Assembly: GCF_000423425.1 (NCBI RefSeq)
Contig: NZ_AUHY01000025.1
Span: 1-37,748 of the forward strand
Origin: Meiothermus rufus DSM 22234
GTDB lineage: Bacteria; Deinococcota; Deinococci; Deinococcales; Thermaceae
Length of the DNA stretch: 37,748 nucleotides
Direction of reading: 5' to 3'
Numbering within the stretch: the first letter of the stretch is position 1; every line of letters starts with the position of its first letter. Of the stretch, positions 5,699 through 28,506 are shown in pieces. The translations under genes were made by a program, and so were the position numbers. The notes below the pieces were generated by a model. That model made no database searches. It saw only the letters and a program-made list of their open reading frames with translations, and had not been told where the DNA came from.

Positions 5699-6487
5699 TT
5701 ACAGCGGAGCTGCCGTGGAAGCCCGCAAAACCAGTTGACTGGGGAACTCCTGCACCTCTTCTGCCAGGCGCTGGCCGCCCAAACCCCGGACTAAAAGCTC
5801 CACCGCCATCCTGGCCATAGCTTGTACTGGCTGAGCCACCGTGGTTAAGGGGGGTTGGAGGTGGGCAGCAATGGGAATATCATCAAAGCCCACCACTGAA
5901 AGCTGGTTGGGAATTTCCAAACCCCGCTCTCGTGCAGCCTCATAAACCCCCAGTGCCGAGAGGTCGTTACCAGCAAAAATAGCCGTGGGCGGTGGGTCTT
6001 GGGTTAATAGCTGTCGAGCCGCCTGTAACCCCCCTTCCTGTGTGAACCCTCCTGGCACCACCCAGCGCTCGTTCCACAAACCTGCAGCTTGCATGACCTC
6101 ACGGTAAGCCCGCAGACGCTCGGCCCCCTGGCCCGAGTGGGGGGCGCCGGAGATATGGGCAATCCGGCGATGGCCTAAGGCCAGCAGGTGACGTAACAAG
6201 TCGGTGGTAGCGTGGTAGTTGTCGGCACGGATCACCGGAAGGTGTGTGGGAGGACCAAAGTAGTTGATAAGCACAATGGGTGCGGGAACCTGTTCAAGAG
6301 CCCGCAGGAATTGCCTCGAGCTGCTAGGACCTACCAAGATCAGCCCATCCACTAGTCCGCCCAGTAGTGAGCCTACCCGCTCACGCTCTCGTTCAGGGCT
6401 GCGCGAAGTTGTGAAAAGCCCCAAATCGTACCCCAGACGCCCAGCCATATCAGCTGCTGCTCGAGCCAACTCGGCAAAATAGGGGCT
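5699..6487 (-). pseudogene. LacI-family regulator missing its DNA-binding domain
   Basis: The frame encodes the effector-binding (periplasmic-binding-protein-like) part of a LacI repressor: SPYFAELARAA at its left end, then [43 protein letters not shown] and PPLTTVAQP. Family members run to about 330-340 residues and begin with a helix-turn-helix and hinge. Here homology starts only at the NPFFAEL-like motif, so roughly the first 60-70 residues are gone. The frame can start at a TTG at 6469. By chance or selection a TATTTT stands six bases before that TTG, so a truncated product could be made, but it could not bind DNA in the usual way. Confidence 0.75.
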
Positions 6488-8259: not shown

Positions 8260-11022
8260 CTACAACAGCCGCTGGGCCACGGGCCGGGGCAGCCCGGCCC
8301 GCACCGAGAGCAGCTCGTGCAGCCCTCGGCCCTCCTCGGTCTCCTCCAGCACCTCGGCCAGGGCCTGGGCCACCTGCCAGAAGGCTTCCTGCTCGAGGTA
8401 GCCCACCTCGCCCAAATAGTCGGCAATGGCCTGCTTGCCCTCGCGCATCAGGAGCAGGGTGCGGTGCAGGGCATCTATCATGGGCACGGCGGCACGCAGT
8501 CCCGCTGGGGCATCGTCCGCGGCGTTAGCAGGCAGGCCCAGGTGCTTGTCCTTGGCCCGCTCGCGGGAGAGCCGGATAAAGGTCTTCTCGCCCTTCTCCT
8601 GCGCCAGCGAGCCCAGCTCGGCCAGCTCCACCCCGGCGCTCTGGGCTAGCTTGCGGGCCTCATCGGAGGGCAGCTCGGTGCCGTAGGCCCAGATGGCCAG
8701 CAGGGCAAACTGGGTGGGCCCGTCCACCCCGCCCATGGCCTTGGTGCCCAGCACCCGCTCCAGGGCAAACTCCAGCACGATCTTGCGCACCTCGTCTAAA
8801 AACTCGCCCACCCCCACCTCGCGCCCGTCGGCCCGCTTGACCACGTCGTAGCGGCTGTAGGCCGAAAGCCCCGGCCCAATGGCCGACATGAAGAAATCGG
8901 CCCCGCGAATCCCCGCCTCCCAGAACTCTTCAAGCTGCGGGCGGATGGCCTCTTGCATCTCGCGGCGCACCTCGGCGAAAAAGCCCGTGCTCCCCCCCTC
9001 GCGCTTGGTGCAATTGAGGAAGGTGGAAGAGGCCAGCGCCGCCGAGTCCCTGGCCCGAAGCCGGGTCGGCATCTCGGTATGCAGGGGCCAGGAGGCCTCC
9101 ACCTGGAACCCCGCCCGAACGAGCGCCCCAATCAGGGTCTCCCAGGCCTCGGTGCTCTTGTGGGCAAAGACGATGGTGGCCTTGCCATGGGGCTTGAGCA
9201 CCCGGTGCATCTCCCGGAAGGCCTGGCCCATCATCTCCTCGAAGAACTGCTTGGCCCGCTGGTTGTCGCCCCCGTGGCGCACCGGGTTCTGCACCGCCTC
9301 CTCGCGCTTGGGCGTAAGGGGGGTGCGGAAGTGCTCGGGGTAGAGGTGGCCGATGGTGCGCCGGAGCCAGACATAGAAGAAATCCGAAAGGTCGGCGTAG
9401 GGCACGGCGTCGTAGTAGGGGGGGTCGGTGATGATGGCGTCGAAGAAGTTGTCTTCAAAGGGGAGGCGGGTAGCGGTGCCGCGCAGGACTGCAGTGGAGC
9501 TACTAGACACCCTACTCTCATGCTCTATCGCTCGTGTAACCCATTCTGTACTACCTACCCAACCAATCGAGCTAAGTGCGTTTGCCTCTGCATATTGCCA
9601 AACCATGGGCAATGCTTGTCTAGCAAAAACATGATCCACAAACTCAGCGATATGATGCCAAAAAACCAAAGTAGCACTTTTATCCGCTAGCCGGTCATGA
9701 ATAATAGCCAAATACGTCGCCACCCCTCGAGCCCACTCCTCATCCATCCCCACCTTCAGCATCTCGGCGTGGGCCTCGCGCACCCACTTGGCAAAGGTGA
9801 CCAGGGCCAGGGCCTGGCGGGAGTTGAAAAGCTGGCCCCAGGTCTCAATCCCGTAGAGGTTTACCCGAAACCCCAGTGTACCCTTGGGTGGTAAGGGCTC
9901 GTCTGGGACAAGGCTCATTTCACCACTGTGACCAGCTTCAAGCTCGGCAAGTCTCTTTTTAGCTTGCTCGAACACAGCTCTATCCGCTTCGTTGGCAGGC
10001 CGGTAGGCTTTGCCCTCCCCGCCCGTTGAGAGAACCACCGCCAACAAGCGCTCGCCCCAGCTTCCTTGCTTGGCCTCGTCACGAACGTTCTCCACCGGAA
10101 TGGCCGTGCTGCAGACCAAGCAGGTGGCGTTTCCCCGCTCGATGGTTCCCTTATCGGGCCACTCCTCGCCCCTGCCCACCTCCACCACCTCAAACGAAAC
10201 GGTCTTGGCCTCGGCGTCTACCTTGGGCCTCAGGGCAATGCGCTTTTTGTCCTTCTTGGCCAGCCACCACTGGCGCACCAGGGGCACCTCGGCACGGCAG
10301 GCGGGGTTGGTGCAGGTCACGGTGCGGGCCCACAGGTAGGCCACCGGGGTTTTGCCGTCGGGGTCGGGCGGGTAAAACTGGGCAAGCTCGGCCTTGGCCC
10401 GCTCCAGCACCCACTCGCCCCAGTAGCGCACCTCGGCGCTCAGGGGGTTTTGCTGGTAACTGCTGGTCCACTCCCCCATTGGGCCTACCGGCTTGGCCCC
10501 GCCAAAATCCAGCGCCTGGCGGCCCTTGCCCCTGGGGGCGTCCCTGGCCCGGATGTACTCGGGCACTGGGCGGCTATTGGGCTGGCCGTACTTCTGGGGG
10601 TACTCCAGGGTGGCCCGCTGGATGAGGTGGGCCACCGGGTTGAGGTCGAGGGCGTAGACCTCGCAACCCAGGCGCAGGGCCTCCAGCGGCATAGCCCCGC
10701 CCCCGGCGAAGGGGTCGAGCACCTTGGGCGGCTTGCCCCCGCCCGCCTCCAGGACCCGGCGGCGGGCCTCGAGGACGGCCGCGTTGTTGCCGTCCTTCAC
10801 GGCCTCCCAGGGCACAATCTGCTTCACCAGCTCGTGGTTTTCCTCGGTGTCGGGCACCAGCGTAGCGAAGACCGCAGCCCGGCTGGCGGCCAAAGGCCGC
10901 CTGGCCCACCAGATGTGCAGGGTGGAGATGTGCCCGTGGCGGATGGACTTCTCCCGGCTCGAGGCCTGGGAGATTTCCTCGAGGGGTAGGCGGTGCTCGA
11001 TAAGGCGGCGTTTCTGCTGCAT
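8260..11022 (-). CDS. DUF1156 adenine-specific DNA methylase with zinc ribbon
   Basis: A 920-residue N6-adenine methylase-like protein. The DUF1156 start is clear (EISQASSREKSIRHGHISTLHIWWARRPL, residues 15-43 in part), followed by AdoMet motif I DPFAGGGAMPLEAL at 103-116, two CxxC-type zinc-ribbon pairs (CTNPAC near residue 245, CLVC near 300) and catalytic motif IV DPPYY at 533-537. It is the likely modification enzyme of the operon, marking host DNA. The ATG at 11022 has GGGGAG just upstream. Two stretches inside the gene, about 9495-9720 and 9900-10000, are visibly less GC-rich than the rest. It lies 75 bp after darG, and that gap holds two tandem palindromes, so it may be controlled separately. 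Confidence 0.88.
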   Translation of the reverse strand: MQQKRRLIEHRLPLEEISQASSREKSIRHGHISTLHIWWARRPLAASRAAVFATLVPDTEENHELVKQIVPWEAVKDGNNAAVLEARRRVLEAGGGKPPKVLDPFAGGGAMPLEALRLGCEVYALDLNPVAHLIQRATLEYPQKYGQPNSRPVPEYIRARDAPRGKGRQALDFGGAKPVGPMGEWTSSYQQNPLSAEVRYWGEWVLERAKAELAQFYPPDPDGKTPVAYLWARTVTCTNPACRAEVPLVRQWWLAKKDKKRIALRPKVDAEAKTVSFEVVEVGRGEEWPDKGTIERGNATCLVCSTAIPVENVRDEAKQGSWGERLLAVVLSTGGEGKAYRPANEADRAVFEQAKKRLAELEAGHSGEMSLVPDEPLPPKGTLGFRVNLYGIETWGQLFNSRQALALVTFAKWVREAHAEMLKVGMDEEWARGVATYLAIIHDRLADKSATLVFWHHIAEFVDHVFARQALPMVWQYAEANALSSIGWVGSTEWVTRAIEHESRVSSSSTAVLRGTATRLPFEDNFFDAIITDPPYYDAVPYADLSDFFYVWLRRTIGHLYPEHFRTPLTPKREEAVQNPVRHGGDNQRAKQFFEEMMGQAFREMHRVLKPHGKATIVFAHKSTEAWETLIGALVRAGFQVEASWPLHTEMPTRLRARDSAALASSTFLNCTKREGGSTGFFAEVRREMQEAIRPQLEEFWEAGIRGADFFMSAIGPGLSAYSRYDVVKRADGREVGVGEFLDEVRKIVLEFALERVLGTKAMGGVDGPTQFALLAIWAYGTELPSDEARKLAQSAGVELAELGSLAQEKGEKTFIRLSRERAKDKHLGLPANAADDAPAGLRAAVPMIDALHRTLLLMREGKQAIADYLGEVGYLEQEAFWQVAQALAEVLEETEEGRGLHELLSVRAGLPRPVAQRLL

Positions 11023-11045
11023 AGTGAACTCCCCATCTCGACAAA

Positions 11046-11084
11046 AACTCTGAATTCAGAGTTAAGAACTCAGCTTTCAGAGTT
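11046..11084. promoter_or_regulatory. Tandem 18-bp palindromic operators before the methylase
   Basis: Copy one, 11046-11063, is AACTCTGAATTCAGAGTT, a perfect palindrome. Copy two, 11067-11084, is AACTCAGCTTTCAGAGTT, matching copy one at 14 of 18 bases and keeping both outer arms. They are separated by AAG, giving a 21-bp repeat, two helical turns. They lie 24-62 bp upstream of the methylase ATG, between darG and the methylase. This is the layout of a two-dimer repressor site. The binding protein is unknown. Confidence 0.7.
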
Positions 11085-11097
11085 TGGATACGGCCAG

Positions 11098-12147
11098 CTA
11101 CGACTGTGCTGAATCGGCTACAGGCTGAGGGAGCCAGCCCCTCTGGGCCAGGTGCTCTGCCGCCACCCGCAGGTGGGCTTCGGGAAAGCGCTCTTTGCGG
11201 GGGCTCCAGGCGCGAACCACCCTCAGCAGCGAGGGCCAGTCCCGGGCTTCTTCGCGGGTAAAAGCCCAGTGCACCGTAGCCAGCAACTCTAGACCATAGG
11301 GCGATTCAAAGCCCTCGATTAGCTCGGCGACACGGCCCACTGCCTCGTCGAATTCCGGGTAATCGGCCAAAAAGGCTACTGCCTCGTCCAGGGCTCCAGG
11401 AGCCAGTTGTATAGCCGAGGAGGTGTTACGGTCGCCATATCCCCGCAGGTAGTGGCCCTCGAGGCGCTGCAATACCGGGTTGAGGTTCTCCGCATAGGGG
11501 CCATACTTCTGCTTGACGAAATTTAGCTTCAGGGGTAAAGGCGATTCCTGAAGGAAGTAGGCCAGCTTTTGAGCCTCTAACCTACCCACCGGTTCACCAA
11601 AAGCACTGTAGAGTGCAAACAGCTTCAGCAATGCGGCCCTGGCTGGGGTGAGGTGGGGTTTGCTCGAGGGCTTAGCCAGGTTGGCCTGAAAAGCAGGCTG
11701 GGGTTGATAGACCCAAACCTCCACCTCCGGCAAGCCAGCAAAAGCCTCCTCAATCAGGGGCCGCACCACAGCCCAGTCCAGGCCGCCGTTGCCCACGCCC
11801 AAAGGCGGTAGGGCCAGCGAGCGCACCCCTAGCGACCTAACCTGGTGCACCAGGTCGCGCAGGCCTTCCTGGACGTACTCGAGGCGGGAAGGCTGCCGCC
11901 AATGCTTTTTGGTAGGAAAGTTGAAGATGTAGCGGGGATAAGCCAGCGGACCTCGGTCAAACACAAAAATACGACCTATCTGCACCTCGCCCTTACGGCA
12001 GGCCGCCTCGTAGGCCCGGTAGTTCTCTGGGTAGGCCCGCTTGAATTGCAAAGCCACCCCCTTGCCCATCACCCCCACGGTGTTGACCGTGTTGACCAGG
12101 GCCTCTACTGGAGCCTGCAAGAGGTCACCCTGCTTGTACTGGATCAT
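11098..12147 (-). CDS. darG: DarG antitoxin: macro-domain DNA ADP-ribosylglycohydrolase
   Basis: A 349-residue antitoxin. The N-terminal macro domain (about 1-150) has the ADP-ribose-binding loops NTVNTVGVMGKG at 19-30 and PPLGVGNGGLDW at 114-125, and Lys80 in FPTKKHW, the position of the catalytic lysine reported for Thermus DarG. It removes ADP-ribose from thymidine in DNA. The C-terminal part (about 165-340) contains KYGPYAENLNPVLQRLEGH and is the region that in DarG proteins binds and blocks DarT. The ATG at 12147 lies 13 bp after the darT stop with GAGGGG upstream. The pair looks complete and functional. Confidence 0.9.
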   Translation of the reverse strand: MIQYKQGDLLQAPVEALVNTVNTVGVMGKGVALQFKRAYPENYRAYEAACRKGEVQIGRIFVFDRGPLAYPRYIFNFPTKKHWRQPSRLEYVQEGLRDLVHQVRSLGVRSLALPPLGVGNGGLDWAVVRPLIEEAFAGLPEVEVWVYQPQPAFQANLAKPSSKPHLTPARAALLKLFALYSAFGEPVGRLEAQKLAYFLQESPLPLKLNFVKQKYGPYAENLNPVLQRLEGHYLRGYGDRNTSSAIQLAPGALDEAVAFLADYPEFDEAVGRVAELIEGFESPYGLELLATVHWAFTREEARDWPSLLRVVRAWSPRKERFPEAHLRVAAEHLAQRGWLPQPVADSAQS

Positions 12148-12160
12148 CGCCCCTCACGGC

Positions 12161-12796
12161 TCAATAATACCAACCCCGCTTAACCCAGACTTTCCGCCAA
12201 ATCTCCCTGGGAAAATCTTCAAGGATTTGTCGAACTTCTCTCGCCATACCCGAATCCAAGACCCCGATGCCCTCAACCAGTTCCCAGGGAAAATAGCGGT
12301 GAACCAGGAACTCGGCCTGCTTCTTTTCCTTGCGGAAGGGCTCTTCGGGCGTGTCGAACCAACTCCGGGCTCGGATAGCCTGCCAGTCCAGCCGAGCAAA
12401 GTCGGTTTTATGGGTGAAGAAATCCGCGTATTTTTTCTTGGCATGCCGGTCTGTGAAAACAAAAGGTAGGCCAGCCTGCTCGACCCGTTCGACGCTCGAG
12501 ACAATGTGCAGGATAGGTCTTTGACCTCCCCTATAGGGCATCTGCCCTTCCAGGGGGTTATGTAGGGCATAGAGCATGGGCGAACGGGGACAAAAGTAAA
12601 AAGGCACGTAGTCGTGCAGAACCCCTCCAGGGCCTACCGGCACCGTTCGCTGGGCTCGCTCCTCCTGAATATGTTCGTAGGCTATGCTGGTACATAGCCT
12701 CGGCAAGTGGTTTTTCGCCCAGAGGCAGCCTTCTTCCAGGATGCCTCTAAGGTTTTCTATGTGGGTGATGTGGTAGATAAGCACGGGTAGCTTCAT
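12161..12796 (-). CDS. darT: DarT toxin: DNA thymidine ADP-ribosyltransferase (DUF4433)
   Basis: A 211-residue toxin that attaches ADP-ribose from NAD+ to thymidine in single-stranded DNA, stalling replication; DarTG pairs are known phage-defence modules. Family features are visible: YHITHIENLRGILEEG at the N-terminus (NAD+-binding His9 or His12), an arginine-rich segment EERAQRTVP at about 45-53, VHDYVPFYFCPRSPMLYALH-like core at 59-79, and KKQAEFLVHR with the presumed catalytic Glu162. Nothing suggests inactivation. Its ATG overlaps the helicase stop by four bases (ATGA at 12793-12796), so toxin synthesis is coupled to helicase translation. Confidence 0.9.
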   Translation of the reverse strand: MKLPVLIYHITHIENLRGILEEGCLWAKNHLPRLCTSIAYEHIQEERAQRTVPVGPGGVLHDYVPFYFCPRSPMLYALHNPLEGQMPYRGGQRPILHIVSSVERVEQAGLPFVFTDRHAKKKYADFFTHKTDFARLDWQAIRARSWFDTPEEPFRKEKKQAEFLVHRYFPWELVEGIGVLDSGMAREVRQILEDFPREIWRKVWVKRGWYY

Positions 12797-15700
12797 TTTG
12801 CCGCAGTTTCAGCGTGCTTTTGCCATTCCTCCAAGGGCAGCACATAGCGCACCACGCTCACCTCTTCGCCAGGGGTCAGCTTGGCCGCAGGGTTTTGGAT
12901 GAGGTACAGCCGTGGCTGGGTGAGGGCCTCGGTCACGATGTAGAGCCAGTACTGATGGCCCAGGCGCCGGGCGGAAATCCACTCGTTGGGGGTCAGCACC
13001 ACCGGCCCCACCCCGGCCCGGCCCTTAACCTCGATGTAGCGCCCGCTCGAGCGGATGTCGTAGCCCAGGTTTTGCTGGCTCACGTCCAGAGCCTCGCGCC
13101 CCTGGGCCTGCTCATAGGCCAGGCTCACCCGCATGGCCGCTTCTTCCACCGCCTGGCGCAGCGCGGGGTCTTCCTCGTTGGGAAGGCCCAAAGGGCGCGG
13201 GCGCAAATAGGCCAGCGTCAGCACCCGCGCGGGTTCGGGATGGAGGGTCGCCGCCCGCTGGAGTTCTTCCTCGAGGGCTTTTAGCCGCTCCTCCAGCTCC
13301 TTGAGGCGGCGCTCTTCTTGCAGGATAGCCAGGCGCATGGCCTCGCCCTCCTTGAGCTTGTACTGGGTGAGCTTCCGCACCGACTCCTCCAGCAAAAACT
13401 CCAGGCTGCGGCGGGCATACTTACGGCGAATAGCCACCTCGTGCTGCCGCTCACGCGCTACCTCCTGGAAAAACCCATCTAAAACCTCGGCGTAAGCCCA
13501 GGCCAAAAGCTTTTCCTCGGCTGCTGCCCCCTCGGCAGGCAGGGCCTGGCCCGCTGGGGCAGGCTCGAGGTCCACCACCAGCTCCGGCGGTACGGGCCGA
13601 ACCTCCGCCTGGGCAATGGCGGCATACAGCCGGCGGGCCACGGTCTGCCCCAGCCCGTCCACCACGCTCAGCTCGAGGTAACCCAGCACCCCCTCCAAGC
13701 CCTGGTCGCTCCAGTAGACCGCCCCTTGGCGCAGCACGGGCGTGGCCTGGGCCAGGGTCTCCTCCAGCACCAGATCGAAAAGGGGGTGCCCCGGCGCGAT
13801 GAGCTCGGCTTCCTGGCGGGCTTTGGGGTCGAAGGTGGCCCTGCCGTACTCGCGGGCCAGCAGGCCAGGGCGCTTGCGGAAAAGCTCGTAGGGCAGGGTA
13901 ACCCGGTAAAGCCCATCGCTACGCCGCTCCACGCTCCCGCCCAAGCGCCCCAGGGCCCGCACGAAGAAGCGCTGGGTGTACTCCGGCTGCAAGCGGTGCT
14001 CTTCCGAGCGGGCCCGCTCCTCCCGCAGGCGCGACAGGTCTAGCTCGCGCTTGGCTAAAGCCTCCAGGGTGACCTCGCGGATGAAGGCTACCCGCTCGGG
14101 GGAGAGGCGGGCCTCGACCACCGCGCGGATTTCCGCCAGGGTCTTGCGACCGGTGAGGTGCTCGAGGATCAGGGCCTCGAGGTTGACGTCGGAGAGCAGC
14201 TCGCCCACCACGTCGTAGACCCGGTCGGAGCCCATCTCCTGGCGCATGCGCTCCAGCTTGTCCAGCACCACCTTCAGCACCTCGCCCTCGCGGGTGCCCT
14301 CGGCCACCAGGTTGTAGATGTGCACGTCGTAGCGCTGCCCGTAGCGGTGGATGCGGCCCATGCGCTGCTCGAGGCGGGTGGGGTTCCAGGGCAGGTCGTA
14401 GTTGACCATCACCGCGCAGAACTGCAGGTTGATGCCCTCGCCGGCGGCCTCGGTGGCCACCATCACCTGGGCGCTGTCGCGGAACTCCCGCTCGCGCAGG
14501 ACCCGCTCCTCCAGGGTCATCGAGCCGTCGATGGAGGTCACGGCATAGCCCCGCTTCCGCAGCACCTCCACCAGGAAGCGCAGGGTGTCCTTGTGCTCGG
14601 TGAAGATGAGGAGCTTTTCCGCACCGATGTTCTGCAACACCCCCAAAAGCTCCCGCAGCTTGCGGTCGTCCTCCAGGCGGGCCAGGGTGCGGGCTTCCTT
14701 GGAGAGGGCCTCGAGCTCGCCCAGCTCGGCCTCGAGTTCGGGCAGGTTGCGGGCCAGGGTCAGCCGCTCGGCCAGGGCATTTTCCACCTGCCAACGCTGA
14801 TCCTCGGTCAGCTCCTCCAGGTCTTCCTCGGTGTACTCGCCGTAAGGGTTCTCCTGCAGCGCGGCCACCTGCTGCCGCAGCGAATCCAGCCGCCGGTAAC
14901 GGTTCTCCAGGCTCTGGGCAATGGCGTAGGTGCTGCTGGCCAGGCGTCGCTGGAGCACCGTCATGGCCAGCCCCACGTTGCGCTGCCGCTCGTCCCAGGC
15001 CCGCTTGAAGTGCCGGGCCACATACTCGCTAACCTTTACGTACAAAGCCTGCTCGCTGGGCGAAAGCCTGAAGGATAGCGTGTGGACATAGCGCGGGGGA
15101 AAGAGGGGCCGGCCCTCGAAGTCGGTCATGTCCTCTTTGAGGCGGCGCAGCAGGATGGGGTTCTCGTTTTTCTGGGCCGCCTCTTGCAGCAAAGCCGTGT
15201 TGGCGAAGAGGTCGGGTTCCAACAGGTCGAGCAGCAGCCGGAACTTTTCGTCGTCGCCCTGGTGGGGGGTGGCCGTGAGGAACAAGAGGTGGGTGCTGCT
15301 TTGGGCCAGCACCTCGCCCAGGCGGTAGCGCTGCGACTTCTTGACCTCGGCCCCATAGCGGGTGGCCGATAGCTTGTGGGCCTCGTCCACAATCACCAGG
15401 TCCCACTGCACCCGCTCCAGGAGGCTCAGGTTCTCCTCCCGTTTGGCGAAGTCGAGGCTGGCGATGAGCTGGGGGCGCTTCTCCCAGGGGTTGTCCTGGT
15501 AAAGGGCGGTAGCGGCGTCGCGGTTCATGACCTCGAAGCTCTCGCCAAACTTCTCCTTCAGCTCCCGCCGCCACTGGTCGGTGAGGTTGGCCGGCGTGAC
15601 GATGAGGATGCGCGAGAGCACCCCCCGGTACTTGAGCTCCTTGAGGAAGAGCCCCGCCATGATGGTCTTCCCGGCCCCAGGGTCGTCGGCCAGCAAAAAG

Positions 15701-16053
15701 CGCACCCGGGGCTTCTTCAACAGCACCCCATAGACGGCCTCGAGCTGGTGCGGCAGGGGGTCGATGCGGCTGGCCGAGACCGCGAAAAAGGGGTCGAAGA
15801 GGTAGCCCAGCTGGATACGCCGGGCCTCGAGGCCCAGGGCAAACACCTCGCCATCCCCGGCGAAGGGCCGCTCTTCAGGCAGCAGGGTGGCTACCTCGGC
15901 CTCGGCCAGAAGGCGGTGATGGGTCTGGCGGCTCAAGAGCCCCTCCGCCACCACCGCGTAGCGCCCCCCGGCGGGCGTAACCCGCAGGATGCGCACCGGC
16001 TCGGGCCAGAAGGGGGCCTCTACCACCCGGTCTACCAGGGCTTCCCACCCCAC
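12793..16053 (-). CDS. SNF2-type DEAH helicase with C-terminal DUF3883 domain
   Basis: A 1086-residue superfamily-2 helicase or translocase. Motif I is DDPGAGKTI at 123-131, motif II DEAH at 223-226, motif III TATPHQGD, and the RecA2 domain ends with motif VI RLEQRMGRIHRYGQ. After a long helical middle part the C-terminus has a DUF3883-like domain with LGYDIRSSGRYIEVKGRAG, whose D...ExK pattern recalls PD-(D/E)XK nucleases. It probably moves along DNA to find or process invading, unmodified DNA together with the DUF499 ATPase. The GTG start at 16053 has AGGAGGAG within the end of the upstream gene, three bases away. Confidence 0.88.
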   Translation of the reverse strand: MGWEALVDRVVEAPFWPEPVRILRVTPAGGRYAVVAEGLLSRQTHHRLLAEAEVATLLPEERPFAGDGEVFALGLEARRIQLGYLFDPFFAVSASRIDPLPHQLEAVYGVLLKKPRVRFLLADDPGAGKTIMAGLFLKELKYRGVLSRILIVTPANLTDQWRRELKEKFGESFEVMNRDAATALYQDNPWEKRPQLIASLDFAKREENLSLLERVQWDLVIVDEAHKLSATRYGAEVKKSQRYRLGEVLAQSSTHLLFLTATPHQGDDEKFRLLLDLLEPDLFANTALLQEAAQKNENPILLRRLKEDMTDFEGRPLFPPRYVHTLSFRLSPSEQALYVKVSEYVARHFKRAWDERQRNVGLAMTVLQRRLASSTYAIAQSLENRYRRLDSLRQQVAALQENPYGEYTEEDLEELTEDQRWQVENALAERLTLARNLPELEAELGELEALSKEARTLARLEDDRKLRELLGVLQNIGAEKLLIFTEHKDTLRFLVEVLRKRGYAVTSIDGSMTLEERVLREREFRDSAQVMVATEAAGEGINLQFCAVMVNYDLPWNPTRLEQRMGRIHRYGQRYDVHIYNLVAEGTREGEVLKVVLDKLERMRQEMGSDRVYDVVGELLSDVNLEALILEHLTGRKTLAEIRAVVEARLSPERVAFIREVTLEALAKRELDLSRLREERARSEEHRLQPEYTQRFFVRALGRLGGSVERRSDGLYRVTLPYELFRKRPGLLAREYGRATFDPKARQEAELIAPGHPLFDLVLEETLAQATPVLRQGAVYWSDQGLEGVLGYLELSVVDGLGQTVARRLYAAIAQAEVRPVPPELVVDLEPAPAGQALPAEGAAAEEKLLAWAYAEVLDGFFQEVARERQHEVAIRRKYARRSLEFLLEESVRKLTQYKLKEGEAMRLAILQEERRLKELEERLKALEEELQRAATLHPEPARVLTLAYLRPRPLGLPNEEDPALRQAVEEAAMRVSLAYEQAQGREALDVSQQNLGYDIRSSGRYIEVKGRAGVGPVVLTPNEWISARRLGHQYWLYIVTEALTQPRLYLIQNPAAKLTPGEEVSVVRYVLPLEEWQKHAETAAK

Positions 16054-16056
16054 CGG

Positions 16057-19000
16057 CTACTCCTCCTGCCAGTCCGCCTCGATATTGTGCTGGTCGAGAA
16101 TCTCCCGGGCCGAGGTACGCAGCACGGCCTCATCCAGCCCCGCCGGGTTCACCGCCTCTACCTCGACCCGCAGGCGCACCGTGCCCTTGGCATCGCGCAG
16201 GGCCTTGACCAGGTCCACCAGGGCCGGGATGCGGGCCAGCTCGAGCTGGGGGATGGTCACGGCGACCCGGGTCTTTAGGGGTTTTTTGCCGTTTACCGGC
16301 TGGGAGTCAGGCTCGGGCTTGACCTCCCTCCCCTCCTCTGGCAGCGGTGTCTTCCCTACCTCAACCGGCGCATCAGGACGAGGTAGGCTACCTAGACGGG
16401 CCAGCACATAAGCTTCGGTGAAAAAAAGCTCCTCGGCCCGGGGAACCTTCCCGGCGTGCCAGACCTGGCTAAAGCCCTCGCCTGAGCGCACCCCTAGCTC
16501 AAACAGGCGGATGCGGATGCCCTGCACAACAGCCTCCTTCAAGGCTTCCTCCCGCTCGAGGAAGGGCAGGTGGGGCAGGCGCAAGAAGTACTCCCGCAGA
16601 TCCTTCAAAGAAAGATAGGGTTCGTCCCGGGGCCACAGACCCCAGGGGCCCTGCACCAGATAGGCCGGGTCGAGGGCGGCTATCAGCCGGTCCTCCGCCC
16701 GCAGCACCTCCATGACCGCGGCCTGCAGGCTGGGCTGGGTTTTGGCATAGGCGGTGAGGTCGTAGTAGTGGTAGGCTCCTTTGGCATCTTTGGGCTCGAG
16801 CATCCCCGTGTAGCTGGCCTTGACCAGCACCGGCAAAGCTTCCCGCGCCTCCTTCAAAAGGCGCTCCAAATCCTGCCGCTGCTCCTCGGACAAAACCAGC
16901 CCCCGGTCGGCTTTGATCTCCTCCAAGGCCAGCAGCTTGCAGGCAGCCTCCTGGGCCCGCAGGTAGGCTGCCCGGGAAAGGGCCAAAAAGAGGGTGGTGT
17001 TCTTGTAGATACGGGGCCCAGAGGCATGGTTGTCCTGCACGATGTGGTAGGCCCGCTCGAGGGCCTCCTTGTGGTCGTTGGGGGCTTCCGGCCCCAAAAG
17101 CACCAGCTTGAGGGCGGGGTTATCGGGCACCTCGCGGTGGTTGCTGGGCCAGATGTAGACCCGGAACACCCCCGGCCCCGCGGCTTTTTCCACCTGTTGC
17201 CGGAGCAGTTCCTCCACCGCCTCTGGCTTGACCTGGGCCATCCGGTCGGCCAGCACCGCATTGAGGTTGGGTTGAGCCTTGAAGGCCCAGCCCCCGTTGA
17301 TGTACAGGTAGTACAGCCGCTTTTTGAGGTTGTCCAGCGCGTCACCTATGAGCAGGGGAGAAATGCCTTCGGGGTAGACCAACGCCAGGTTGAGCTGGGG
17401 GCGGGAGGCCCCGCGTTCCGCACCGCCAGAGTGGGAGTAAAAGAATACCGCTGTGGCCAGCGACTGCGCCAAGCGGAAGCGCGCGTAATCTCCGCCCAGC
17501 TCGCGATCCAGCAGGTAGGCCTTGCCCTCTGGGGGGATAATGTCCGAGGCCAGCACCGGCTCCCAGTGAGCCTCGCCCAACACGCTGGTGACCGTGGCCC
17601 TCAGGTCGGCGGACTCCAAGGCGGCGTCGCCCAGCCCGATCAGGGGGCGGGCCGAGGCCGAAAGATACCCCGCTTCCACCAGCCGGGCCAGAAGGCGCAG
17701 CACGCCGCGGGTCTTCTGGAAGGTCTGTAGGGTGCCCCAGCGCTCGTAGAGCACGCGCACCAGCTCGGGGTGAAAGGGAAAGGCCGCCAGCATCTTGCGC
17801 CCGTACTCGCCGCTGCGCACCTCGCTGGGCAGCTCGTTCTTCAGCTCCTCGTAGGCCTTCATGTAGGCGGCCACCACCTGCTTGGCCCCCTCGCCGTCGA
17901 TGCGCTCGAACAGGCGGCGCCGCAGCACCTCGTAGATTTCCTCCCCCTGCACCGGCATGCGCACGGCCTGCACCCGGCCGAAGATCTTCTCTAGACGGGC
18001 AAAGACCTCTGGAGCCTCCTTGTGGTCGTAGTACTCGAGGTGCGACTCAGGGAAGGTGGTGACCAAAGCGACGTTACGCAGGCTGCCCACCACCTCGGTG
18101 AGTTCCTGCAGGAAGGCGAAGGTCTGGGCCTGCAGGCTGGTATTGCCGATGGAAACCGAGGCCGCCTTGACCTGGTAGACCAAAAGCTCGTCAATCAGGA
18201 TGAGAACCGGGCTGTACGCTCGCAGGAGTTCATCCAGGGCCTGCTTGCCGGGCGGGGTCATGGCCTCGTCTGCAGCACGCAGCCTTTCGTAACCGGCCTT
18301 ATCGCCTAGCTGGTAGGCCAGCTCACCCCACAGGGTTTGGATGCGCAGGCCATCCACCATGCGTCCTTGGGCGGAAAGATCGGTGCCCACCAGCACCGCT
18401 ACCCGCGCCCTTGGCATGCTGCCGACCCCAGCCTCTTGCAGCAGGGCCTTGATCTCCGGCAGGTCGGTGAGTTCGGCATAGGCCTTGACCAGATGGTACA
18501 GGGCAATCAAGGCATGGGTCTTACCCCCGCCGAAGGGGGTGCGCAGTTGGACCACCGCCTCCCCACCCATGCCGGCCAGCCGCCGCAGCGTGTCCTTGAG
18601 GATGGAGGCGAGTTCCTTGGTAAGGTAGGTCTTCTTGAAAAACGCCTCGGCGTAGCGGTACTCGGCTGGCGCTCTGCCAAACACCACGTCGTCGAGCTTG
18701 GCCGCGAAGGTGTTCTCGTCGAACTCGCCCCGGCGAATGGCCTCATCCGGCTCGGCCAGCTGCCACCAGGGGGGTAGGCTGCCCTTGGGCGCACTGGGTA
18801 AGGTGCGCTCCATAAGCTGGCGCACCTCTTTGGCCACCTCTTCCGCACCGATCTGGCGCAAAAAGCGCACGATGTTGTCCAGGGCACGGCTTACATCCTC
18901 TTCGGGGAGGTGTTTCTGATGGGCCCAGGCGTTGCGCACCTCGCTGATCTCGTCAGCCCAGGTGACCGCGCGGTTAAAGTTGCGGCCAAACGCCTCGCGG

Positions 19001-19245
19001 AACACTTCTCGCTGGCCTAGCAGAACGTCCTTGACGTGGTTGATATCGAAAACATCCTCTGCCGTCTTGCCGCGCTTCAGGTCCTCCAGGGCCTGGGCTC
19101 GCCGGGCCTCGCTTAGCGCAGCCAGGTAGGCTTCTACCCAAGCTTGGCCCTGGCCATACACCCGCTGCAACTCGGCCACAAAATAAGCACGCACCGCCTC
19201 GGCATACAGCCGCAGGGCGGTGCTTAGGTAGCTTTCGGCCTTCAT
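16057..19245 (-). CDS. DUF499 AAA+ ATPase with N-terminal Swt1-like HEPN domain
   Basis: A 1062-residue protein, first gene of the defence operon. Residues about 1-145 form an all-helical HEPN-like domain with the RNase signature R-x4-H at 104-109 (RNAWAH). The DUF499 ATPase core follows, with Walker A FGGGKTH at 238-244 and Walker B LILIDEL at 348-354. The C-terminal part (about 985-1062) is a separate small domain after a Pro/Glu-rich linker. Proteins of this family accompany DUF1156 methylases and helicases in defence islands. The ATG at 19245 lies six bases after TAAGAT, so the operon seems to have its own leaderless promoter although bioY ends only 36 bp upstream. Confidence 0.88.
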   Translation of the reverse strand: MKAESYLSTALRLYAEAVRAYFVAELQRVYGQGQAWVEAYLAALSEARRAQALEDLKRGKTAEDVFDINHVKDVLLGQREVFREAFGRNFNRAVTWADEISEVRNAWAHQKHLPEEDVSRALDNIVRFLRQIGAEEVAKEVRQLMERTLPSAPKGSLPPWWQLAEPDEAIRRGEFDENTFAAKLDDVVFGRAPAEYRYAEAFFKKTYLTKELASILKDTLRRLAGMGGEAVVQLRTPFGGGKTHALIALYHLVKAYAELTDLPEIKALLQEAGVGSMPRARVAVLVGTDLSAQGRMVDGLRIQTLWGELAYQLGDKAGYERLRAADEAMTPPGKQALDELLRAYSPVLILIDELLVYQVKAASVSIGNTSLQAQTFAFLQELTEVVGSLRNVALVTTFPESHLEYYDHKEAPEVFARLEKIFGRVQAVRMPVQGEEIYEVLRRRLFERIDGEGAKQVVAAYMKAYEELKNELPSEVRSGEYGRKMLAAFPFHPELVRVLYERWGTLQTFQKTRGVLRLLARLVEAGYLSASARPLIGLGDAALESADLRATVTSVLGEAHWEPVLASDIIPPEGKAYLLDRELGGDYARFRLAQSLATAVFFYSHSGGAERGASRPQLNLALVYPEGISPLLIGDALDNLKKRLYYLYINGGWAFKAQPNLNAVLADRMAQVKPEAVEELLRQQVEKAAGPGVFRVYIWPSNHREVPDNPALKLVLLGPEAPNDHKEALERAYHIVQDNHASGPRIYKNTTLFLALSRAAYLRAQEAACKLLALEEIKADRGLVLSEEQRQDLERLLKEAREALPVLVKASYTGMLEPKDAKGAYHYYDLTAYAKTQPSLQAAVMEVLRAEDRLIAALDPAYLVQGPWGLWPRDEPYLSLKDLREYFLRLPHLPFLEREEALKEAVVQGIRIRLFELGVRSGEGFSQVWHAGKVPRAEELFFTEAYVLARLGSLPRPDAPVEVGKTPLPEEGREVKPEPDSQPVNGKKPLKTRVAVTIPQLELARIPALVDLVKALRDAKGTVRLRVEVEAVNPAGLDEAVLRTSAREILDQHNIEADWQEE

Positions 19246-19896: not shown

Positions 19897-20814
19897 TTAC
19901 AGACTTCCGATCAGGTGGACATCCCCGGCCCCAATGCGATGGAGCCGGCCCTCGCTTTCCAAAAGCAGCGAGCCGTCGGGGGCGATGCCCTGAGCCTGGC
20001 CTTGCACCTCCCCTTCTGGGGTGGTCACCCGTACCAGCCGCCCCAGGGTGTAGCTCTGGGCCCGATAGTCGCGCAACACCCCCTCGAGGTCGCCCGAAAG
20101 CTGGGTGTAGCGGGCCTCCAGCCGGGCCAGCAGGTCGGCTAAAAGCTCGACCCGGCTGGCCTCCCTGAACTCTTCCAGAGCGGCTGCCTCGGGCGGCAGG
20201 TGGGGGCTGGGGTGAACGTTGAGGCCGATGCCCAACAGCACATAGGCCACCTCTTCCCCGCTCACCTGGGCCTCCAGCAGCACCCCGGCCAGCTTGCGCC
20301 CATCGGGGCTTAACAGGTCGTTAGGCCACTTGAGCCCCCCCACCCCGCAGGCCTCCCAGAGGGCCAGCCCCGCCGCCAAAGAGAGCAAGGGCAGGCTCGA
20401 GAGGGCCAGCCGGGGGCGCAGCAGGAGGGAGAAGGTCAGGGCAGAGCCGGGCGGGCTGGCCCAGGGCCGCCCCCGCCGCCCCCGGCCTTTCTCCTGGCGC
20501 TCGGCCAGCACCACCGCGCCCTCCTCGGCGCCATCCAGGGCCCAGTTCTTGAGCACGTCCTGGGTGCTCTTCACCGTGCCCAAATAGGCATAAAAAGCCC
20601 CAAAACGGCCCCTGCGCCGGGCTTCCAGGGCCGCGGGGGTAGGGGTGCCGGGCCGCAGCCGGTAGCCCTTGCCCTTCTGAGTCTCTACCGGGTATCCGGC
20701 CCGACGCAGGGTCTCGACCTGCTTCCACACCGCAGCCCGGCTGATGCCGAGCTGCCGGGCCAGGGCTTCGCCGCTCTGGTAGCGGTCGCCCAGGTGGGCC
20801 AGCAGCTCGAACAC
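19897..20814 (-). CDS. birA: Biotin-protein ligase and biotin repressor
   Basis: About 305 residues. An N-terminal winged helix-turn-helix (SGEALARQLGISRAAVWKQV) precedes the ligase core with GRGRRGRPW (biotinyl-AMP loop), KWPNDLL and LLGIGLNVHP, then an SH3-like C-terminal domain. It activates biotin and attaches it to acetyl-CoA carboxylase; the helix-turn-helix suggests it also represses biotin genes. The frame is open to a TTG at 20850, but the GTG at 20814 lies seven bases after TATTTT and gives the usual N-terminus (FELLAHLGD), so it is preferred. Divergent from the WD40 gene; bioY follows. Confidence 0.9.
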   Translation of the reverse strand: MFELLAHLGDRYQSGEALARQLGISRAAVWKQVETLRRAGYPVETQKGKGYRLRPGTPTPAALEARRRGRFGAFYAYLGTVKSTQDVLKNWALDGAEEGAVVLAERQEKGRGRRGRPWASPPGSALTFSLLLRPRLALSSLPLLSLAAGLALWEACGVGGLKWPNDLLSPDGRKLAGVLLEAQVSGEEVAYVLLGIGLNVHPSPHLPPEAAALEEFREASRVELLADLLARLEARYTQLSGDLEGVLRDYRAQSYTLGRLVRVTTPEGEVQGQAQGIAPDGSLLLESEGRLHRIGAGDVHLIGSL

Positions 20815-20821
20815 GTCAACC

Positions 20822-20827
20822 AAAATA
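20822..20827 (-). promoter_or_regulatory. -10 box of birA-bioY (leaderless type)
   Basis: TATTTT on the reverse strand, seven bases (GGTTGAC), then the preferred GTG at 20814. Confidence 0.45.
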
Positions 20828-20864
20828 CCGGTTTCGGGTTGACCAAGCAACCCCGCCGACCGGC

Positions 20865-26407: not shown

Positions 26408-27814
26408 GTGTTGAGCCGGGATGTGACCCAGAAAACCTGGGGGGGCCGCTTCAGCCAAGCACCCAGCCAGATTGCCCAGGAGTTCAACGCCTCGCTGCGC
26501 TTCGACCGGCGGCTGGCGCTGGTGGATATTGAGGGCTCGCTGGCCCATGCGGCGATGCTCGGCCAGCAGGGCATCCTCAGCCCTGAGGAGGCCGAGCAGA
26601 TTCGTCAGGGGTTGTTGGCTGTGCGCCAGGAAATTCTGGAGGGGCGCTTCCCCTGGCGCGAAGAGCTGGAGGACGTGCATATGAACCTCGAGGCCCGCCT
26701 GACCGAGCTGGTAGGCCCGGTGGGGGGCAAGCTGCACACCGCCCGCAGCCGCAACGACCAGGTGGCTACCGACCTGCGCCTGTGGCTGCGGCAGGAGCTG
26801 GACGGGGCCCTGGAGGACCTAAAGGCCCTGCGCCGGGTTTTGCTGGCCCAGGCTGAGCGCTACCTCGAGCCCCCCCTCATCCTGCCCGGCTACACCCATC
26901 TGCAACGGGCCATGCCCCTCCTGCTTTCCCACTGGTTCATGGCCTACTACGAGATGCTCTCGCGCGATGCTGGCCGGCTTAAGGACGCCCGCGCCCGGCT
27001 CAACGAGTCTCCCTTGGGAGCCGCTGCCCTGGCCGGCACCGGCTTCCCCATCGACCGAGAGGCCACGGCCCAGGCCCTCGGCTTCGCACGGCCCATGCGC
27101 AACTCACTGGACGCAGTAGGCTCGCGCGACTTTGTACTCGAGGCCTTGGCGGCGCTCACCATCGGCCAGGTCAACCTCTCCCGTCTGGCCGAGGAGATCG
27201 TCTTGTACACCACCCTCGAGTTCGGCTTCGCTACCCTGCCCGATGCCTTCTCCACCGGTTCCTCCATCATGCCCCAGAAGAAAAATGCCGACCATGCCGA
27301 GCTTATCCGGGCCAAGGCGGGGCGGGTACTGGGTAGCTTCGTCACCTTAGCCACCCTCAGCAAAGGGCTACCCCTGGCCTACAACAAGGATCTACAGGAA
27401 GACAAAGAGCCCCTCTTCGACGCCATGGACACCTACCGGGCCTCGCTGCGCCTTCTGGCGGCCATGCTGCCGGGACTGGTATGGCACCCTGAGGCCATGC
27501 GCCAGGCTGCGGCCTCGGGCTTTGCCCTGGCTACCGAGCTGGCCGACTACTTAGCCGAGCGCGGCCTGCCCTTCCGCGAGGCCCACCACGTGGTGGGACG
27601 TCTGGTGCGCTACTGCCTAGAAGAGCGAAAGGAGCTACACCAGCTCTCCTTGGCCGAGCTACAAAGCTTCCACCCCCTCTTCGCCGAGGACGCCCTGGCC
27701 CTGACCCACCTCGAGAGCGCCATCCACCGCCGACGAAGCTACGGAGGAACCGCACCCGAGGCTGTTAGAGAAGCCATAAAGACCGCCAAAGCCGAGTTGG
27801 AGGGGGAAGCTTGA
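26408..27814 (+). CDS. argH: Argininosuccinate lyase
   Basis: A 468-residue enzyme that splits argininosuccinate to arginine and fumarate, the last step of arginine synthesis. The WGGRFSQ start, [16 protein letters not shown] and the superfamily signature [12 protein letters not shown] (about residue 283) are clear. The start could be GTG 26408 or the adjacent TTG 26411; the GGAGGG at 26401-26406 is better spaced for the TTG. The stop overlaps the start of the next gene as TTGA. Confidence 0.95.
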
Positions 27815-28350
27815 AGGGAATCGAACTGGGAACCACCATTCTGCCCAAGGTGCGCTGGGATGCCAACGTGGAGCTGCGCAAGGCCCACATGAGGGATGTA
27901 GAGGCTATCTACACCCTGATCAAGTACTGGGCCGAGCGCGGCCTGATGCTGGTACGCAGCCACGACCACCTCTACGAAAACCTGCGCGACTTTTTCGTGC
28001 TGGAAGACGAGGACGGGCATATCGTGGGCAGCGGGGCTTTGCACATCCTGTGGCACGACATTGCCGAGGTGCGGGGACTGGCCGTTCACCCCGACCGCCA
28101 GGGTCAGGGCTTGGGCCGCTGGCTGGCCCTGGCCGCCGAGCGCGAGGCCAAGGACCTAGGCATCCCCCAGATTTTCGCCTGGACCCTGCAGGTGCGCTTC
28201 TTTACCAGCCTGGGCTACCAGGTGACCACCCGTGAGGCCCTGCCGCCTAAGGTTTTCGCCGAGTGCAGCGCCTGCCCCTTCTACGACAACTGCCGCGAAA
28301 TTGGGGTGACCAAGGTGCTGGATGAAAGGAACGCCTACCGGCGGAGTTAA
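27811..28350 (+). CDS. argA: N-acetyltransferase, compact ArgA-type (N-acetylglutamate synthase)
   Basis: A 179-residue GNAT protein with the acetyl-CoA-binding [13 protein letters not shown] motif. Coupled to argH by a TTGA overlap and preceded by GGAGGGGGAAG, it is read from a TTG start. A cysteine cluster near the end ([10 protein letters not shown]) is typical of the short ArgA-like enzymes found in actinobacteria and Thermaceae, which acetylate glutamate for arginine synthesis. Operon position with argG and argH supports this role; other GNAT substrates cannot be excluded. Confidence 0.8.
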
Positions 28351-28414
28351 GCCCGTTAGACAAGCACCTAGGTGTTGGATAAAGGTGCGTCTTCGTTCCG
28401 TGCCCTCAAAAGAG

Positions 28415-28450
28415 AGGTGGCCCCGCCTATCAAGATAGGCGGGGCCACCT
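28415..28450 (+). terminator. Terminator of the arginine operon
   Basis: A perfect 17-bp stem with arms AGGTGGCCCCGCCTATC and GATAGGCGGGGCCACCT separated by only two bases (effective loop of four). There is no T-run. It lies 65 bp after the argA stop, at the boundary to a less GC-rich region. Confidence 0.75.
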
Positions 28451-28506
28451 AGCTTAGTATTGGGAGAGGCTATCTTCCACTCGTGTCAATCTGAGGAGAG
28501 GAGGGC

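Follow-up and report, generated by a model that had tools for sequence, protein, structure and literature searches.

Two tandem palindromes in the leader of the methylase gene hmaB of Meiothermus rufus DSM 22234 have, in our estimate, an even chance of being a tandem operator private to the locus, at which paired dimers of a winged-helix protein would govern transcription into hmaB, and the comparison with related loci suggests that the regulator gene has been lost from this strain with its docking site left behind. The stretch of DNA analyzed (37,748 nucleotides; hereafter the window) encodes on its minus strand an Hma (DUF499/DUF1156) defence operon with a darTG pair inserted between hmaA and hmaB. 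The features concerned are the following:

16057–19245, minus strand: hmaC, DUF499 ATPase with an N-terminal HEPN_Swt1 domain (PADLOC and Pfam)
12793–16053, minus strand: hmaA, SNF2-type helicase with a NOV_C domain (PADLOC and Pfam)
12161–12796, minus strand: darT, toxin and slot cargo between hmaA and hmaB, overlapping the hmaA stop (family match)
11098–12147, minus strand: darG, antitoxin, cargo of the same slot (family match)
11067–11084, minus strand: copy 1, imperfect 18-bp dyad, AACTCTGAAAGCTGAGTT on the minus strand, upstream in gene direction
11046–11063, no strand assigned: copy 2, perfect 18-bp palindrome AACTCTGAATTCAGAGTT (from sequence); 17 bp, with one core base fewer, in the related loci of Calidithermus and of genome G016
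11045–11085, minus strand: the whole element as a single long inverted repeat or, possibly, an RNA hairpin, 5' of the hmaB ribosome-binding site
11029–11034, minus strand: Shine-Dalgarno-like GGGGAG of hmaB (from sequence)
8260–11022, minus strand: hmaB, DUF1156 adenine-methylase-like protein of 920 amino acids (PADLOC HmaB, Pfam DUF1156), whose leader holds the element

HmaA, HmaB and HmaC occur together with PADLOC scores of 693, 490.9 and 513 bits, respectively, placing the locus among the Hma (Type-1 BR) systems, while the inserted pair belongs to DarTG, with 247.7 bits for DarT (NCBIfam cut-off 150) and 428 bits for DarG (cut-off 250). The gene called a methylase in the preliminary description is hmaB. 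The Hma system (PMC8565338), renamed Type-1 BR (PMC12839542), has a helicase, a DUF1156 methylase and a DUF499 ATPase, as the locus does; the accessible parts of these papers mention neither a toxin-antitoxin slot between hmaA and hmaB nor a palindromic site before hmaB, in contrast to the window, where both are present.

The preliminary description had reported a perfect 18-bp palindrome and an imperfect copy in tandem between darG and the methylase gene, and this was confirmed: the copies lie 21 bp apart (start to start) in the 75-bp gap 11023–11097, copy 1 (AACTCAGCTTTCAGAGTT) being identical to copy 2 in 15 of 18 positions and forming six of nine dyad pairs, with a strong left and a weak right half. 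The copy pair is also one inverted repeat with 19-nt arms, 84% complementary and separated by 3 nt, which that description did not contain. The GC content is 64% in the window, 44% in the gap and 36% in the element, and no sigma-70-like consensus promoter was detected in the gap. A single perfect 18-bp palindrome is unremarkable, the window having three of them; the tandem pair has no second example in the window, and one of 150 dinucleotide shuffles contained such a pair, while in a second control none of 100 shuffles reached two matches. Many unrelated genomic copies of the 18-mer had been named as the outcome that would speak against a specific site; with up to three mismatches allowed, matches in the genome (2.74 Mb) were found at these two places only. 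A dispersed repeat was rejected, the element being private to the locus. The 114 viral stretches matching the bare dyad pattern are taken as chance, given the size of that collection, and an integron attC-like hairpin was set aside because the flanking bases do not fit the attC consensus. A second long inverted repeat of the window, at 28410–28455 (17 of 19 positions paired) after the gene 27811–28350, is probably a terminator.

Searching 111 genomes of the phylum for HmaB at E ≤ 1e-150 gave seven carriers: the window genome (G000), Calidithermus chliarophilus (G003), G016, M. hypogaeus (G007), G010, T. igniterrae (G034) and G108. The hmaA–hmaB interval (window 12161–16053; loci L061, L063, L064 and L069) is an exchangeable slot. 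It contains darTG in the window and Calidithermus, RecQ-like and DprA-like genes plus an AlbA-type gene in G016 and M. hypogaeus, and Phd/YefM with PIN in G108, while it is empty in G010 and T. igniterrae. The RecQ-like/DprA-like pair scores as PsyrT/PsyrA (M. hypogaeus genes scanned), and by family match each cargo, present in five of the seven loci, contains a toxin-antitoxin pair. Of the five loci with cargo, four have tandem palindromes before hmaB; neither of the two without cargo does.

The composite element itself was found in three of the 111 genomes (three of the seven close hma loci), once each and always directly 5' of hmaB, with darG as upstream neighbour in the window and Calidithermus and the AlbA-type gene in G016, where the stop codon of that gene falls within copy 1. 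Since it stands before hmaB behind darG and behind the AlbA-type gene alike, the element is linked to hmaB and not to the toxin pair. Its 8-base arm AACTCTGA occurs three times each in the window, the 18.5-kb G016 locus and the 18-kb Calidithermus locus, every time inside the element and in the same 21-bp geometry; the left half of copy 1 is unchanged across these three loci, while the right half varies in G016. An assignment to darTG was rejected, as five Thermus DarTG loci (DarG 64–67% identical) do not have the element after darG, and it is also contradicted by G016, which has the element and no DarG of this kind.

The corresponding spot in M. hypogaeus is occupied by different tandem palindromes, ATAATTGC-N5-GCAATTAT twice, 31 bp apart, both copies of which are private among 50 family genomes. 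The contig of this species (L063, 16429) breaks off within hmaB, past residue 488, and the remainder of the gene has no match at similar identity elsewhere in the assembly. The PIN gene of G108 runs into the start of hmaB, and in that locus a dyad sits after hmaA, before the antitoxin gene, instead. Among 135 gene ends in 12 loci, dyads with arms of at least 8 near the stop were present at ten, five of which were AT-rich (AT at least 0.60); all five lie in the hma slot, four being the pre-hmaB elements and the fifth the one following hmaA in G108. The AlbA end of genome G018 was left out of this count, as the ORF picker took the opposite frame there. No comparable leader element was seen by eye in the distant Thermus HmaB loci (about 33–38% identical), and no HmaB relatives were found in viral contigs; plasmid relatives are less than 60% identical, and the plasmid DNA matches, among those listed, cover the hmaB start only.

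The candidate for the regulator comes from the AlbA-type proteins, in which the winged helix and the adjacent palindromes diverge jointly. The proteins of G016 and M. hypogaeus are identical in 450 of 496 residues (91%) up to the winged helix and in 21 of 69 (30%) within this C-terminal domain, and the diverged domain adjoins palindromes that also differ. The protein of G018 shares 233 of 492 residues with that of G016 before the winged helix and 30 of 64 within it (47% in both parts), while its C-terminus is 34% identical to that of M. hypogaeus; being equally like G016 in both parts, it makes M. hypogaeus look like the exchanged one. These three, the only AlbA proteins of this clade in the genome set, share AlbA_2 and HATPase_c_4. 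Pfam recognized HTH_24 at the C-terminus in G016 and HTH_24/MarR_2 in G018, and the diverged M. hypogaeus domain is likewise predicted to be a winged helix: the modelled fold runs helix-strand-helix-helix-strand-strand (pLDDT about 76–83 in the core, mean 69), and its PDB neighbours, none of them at E ≤ 0.001, are mostly winged-helix proteins (MarR-type, MecI, BlaI, Fur), including 3lmm.

In G018 the AlbA gene belongs to a Type I restriction-modification operon, between hsdM and fic-hsdS-DUF3800-hsdR, and is followed, before fic, by five AATGCACG half-sites within 70 bp (L214, around 10341–10398). These half-sites include two pairs spaced by exactly 21 bp and surround a perfect 18-bp palindrome, whose full dyad is private among 50 genomes. 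Thus, two unrelated palindrome sets beside AlbA-type genes have a near-integer-turn spacing, 31 and 21 bp. The AlbA genes that precede hmaB in G019 and G011, which are of a more distant kind, showed no evident palindrome, nor did the regions downstream of most Thermus AlbA paralogues, and only three AlbA relatives, all distant, were found on plasmids. The window genome has neither an AlbA homologue at E ≤ 1e-8 nor a winged-helix match at E ≤ 1, so the site lacks its presumed partner there; in Calidithermus the sole AlbA homologue is a distant paralogue that lacks the C-terminus, and the winged-helix matches are weak (best E 0.10).

On the DNA side the element has the properties of a tandem dimer operator, namely two dyads, 21 bp apart and unique in the genome, for a putative binder. 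It would be built for two cooperating dimers that sit two helical turns apart and so face the same side of the DNA, and its original partner would most likely be the AlbA_2-HATPase_c_4-winged-helix protein whose gene lies immediately upstream in G016 and similar relatives. The bound protein may block or tune transcription into hmaB, which would give the methylase a dose independent of the genes upstream. The window and Calidithermus lack the psyrTA-albA cargo and have darTG at that position, the junction coinciding with the element's left edge; the operator would thus be left there without its partner, either idle or used by some other protein. Binding, repression, the order of events and the exchange of the whole cargo by darTG are what we infer from this comparison of loci. 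A point against an operator is the length of copy 2, which is 18 bp in the window but 17 bp in Calidithermus and G016, a difference that a strict dimer site should not tolerate easily.

The preliminary interpretation thus stood in one part, a putative paired-dimer-type site belonging to the methylase, as the locus-private element recurs before hmaB with either upstream neighbour. Its other part, control through methylation of the GAATTC core, is unsupported because that core is not conserved, changing to GATTC in Calidithermus and to GAATC in G016; the window contains four GAATTC against 4.0 expected. Conservation of the element as proof of a present function was likewise unsupported. Between the window and Calidithermus it is no better than the local background, 367 of 4161 39-column segments being likewise free of substitutions, and against G016, with two substitutions and one gap in the element, 10.5% of 2520 hmaB segments do as well.

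An unlikely alternative is that the element acts as RNA, the hmaB-sense transcript forming a long hairpin upstream of the ribosome-binding site that serves as an attenuator, a processing site or an insulator between cargo and hmaB, with the DNA palindromes as a by-product. The 39-nt element folds with -15.2 kcal/mol (z -4.2; none of 200 shuffles as good), and each of the four pre-hmaB elements is predicted to form a long hairpin: that of M. hypogaeus has its two spacers paired, helped by G-U pairs, and in G016, where copy 1 has lost most of its dyad, the inner stem re-registers. This loss of the dyad with the hairpin kept speaks for RNA, and the change between 17 and 18 bp would be harmless to a hairpin. 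A T-run follows the hairpin in the window and G016, but it is missing in M. hypogaeus and broken in Calidithermus. The long hairpins of the four elements, predicted at -11 to -22 kcal/mol at 37°C, retain only -5 to -10 kcal/mol at 60°C (single-copy ones 0 to -3.4), the 81-nt leader as a whole is unexceptional (z -1.9), no Rfam family reached its gathering score, and the joint change of winged helix and palindromes is left unexplained. An intrinsic terminator was discarded in view of the element's 36% GC and the T-run absent in M. hypogaeus; the element is one of ten terminator-like sites listed, with 10.1 expected.

Rather improbable, in our view, is a relic or recombination seam, in which the element would have no present role in the window and would mark the join where the cargo between hmaA and hmaB was exchanged. 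The homology between the darTG-type and albA-type loci begins at the left edge of the element, the slot cargo differs among relatives, and both the background-level conservation against Calidithermus and the lack of AlbA and winged-helix matches in the window genome fit a site out of use. A seam does not account for the three half-sites that three genomes conserve in one geometry, nor for the match to G016 at 36 of 38 aligned bases, compared with 77% nucleotide identity for hmaB.

More doubtful still is an operator for a protein common to all carriers, either HmaB itself, as methylase autoregulation, or the winged helices of HmaC. Methylases repressing their own promoter are known, which counts in favor of HmaB, and the loci of the window, Calidithermus and G016 share no genes other than hmaC, hmaA and hmaB. 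DUF499 ATPases with wHTH domains are described in the accessible part of PMC12839542. Against this, HmaB of M. hypogaeus (first 485–488 residues), at 86–88% identity the closest of all to that of the window, faces quite different palindromes, with the reservation that its C-terminal half, missing from the contig, may differ. G010 and T. igniterrae, with HmaB, HmaC and HmaA present and the slot empty, have no palindromes.

An operator for paired dimers has parallels in known systems. In C-box restriction-modification systems paired dyads are bound by cooperating dimers that time the methylase and restriction genes; the likeness is in the paired dyads, while site sequence and spacing differ, and the putative partner here is a large AlbA_2-HATPase-wHTH protein. 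A small HTH C protein was not seen in the window: inspection by eye of 34 selected larger ORFs (at least 80 amino acids) gave only the ORF 5699–6469, which from its sequence we take to be LacI-like, and the HTH end of the presumably BirA-like ORF 19897–20850. The RptR island of E. coli (RRDM) carries DarTG2 between the hsdS and hsdR genes of a restriction operon and has a dimeric repressor acting on repeated palindromes, at least two sites being needed, according to the accessible part of PMC12255303. To this extent the window resembles it, having DarTG within a defence operon and repeated palindromes. In that same part, RptR, the product of the first gene, is assigned 6-bp TAGCTA palindromes in 9-bp repeats at the island promoter (PMC12255303), in contrast to the window sites, which are 18 bp long, internal and before the methylase gene, with no regulator gene seen in the window. 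An RptR operator was therefore dismissed, since the site sequences differ and no small regulator gene was seen by eye among the 34 larger ORFs. Thermus phage DarTG is treated in the accessible part of PMC11437467. The structure 3lmm (DIP2311), also AlbA_2-HATPase_c_4-wHTH, matches the G016 protein over 23–560 as a relative of the full protein and was deposited as uncharacterized. Our literature searches found no paper on an adjacent operator for such proteins and, in the accessible text, none describing the palindrome pair or the slot arrangement.

As a tentative generalization, a toxin-antitoxin slot before the methylase (DarTG, PsyrTA, Phd-PIN or empty) may be exchangeable, with the winged helix and its adjacent tandem operator travelling as one specificity cassette, and a docking site might outlive its regulator, after which a new toxin-antitoxin pair could take it over or simply lie above a leftover. 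This would bear on how the methylase of Hma/BR systems is dosed against the partner toxins and helicases. If the joint change holds, each locus would name its own regulator and DNA site, and the control site could remain at the methylase gene even as the cargo of a defence operon is replaced.

Other hma loci showed further rearrangements. HmaB of G108 (L069, 9690–12887) has a DUF559 endonuclease-like domain inserted at residues 175–282 with low-complexity flanks, and G019 (L215) has another hma locus with a DarG-like gene, in the order hmaA-albA-hmaB-darG (macro part only)-hmaC. In G005 a decayed locus retains only the C-terminal end of hmaB (L216, 15058–15372), and the chromosomal gene next to it is the one that also flanks the loci of G010 and G016.
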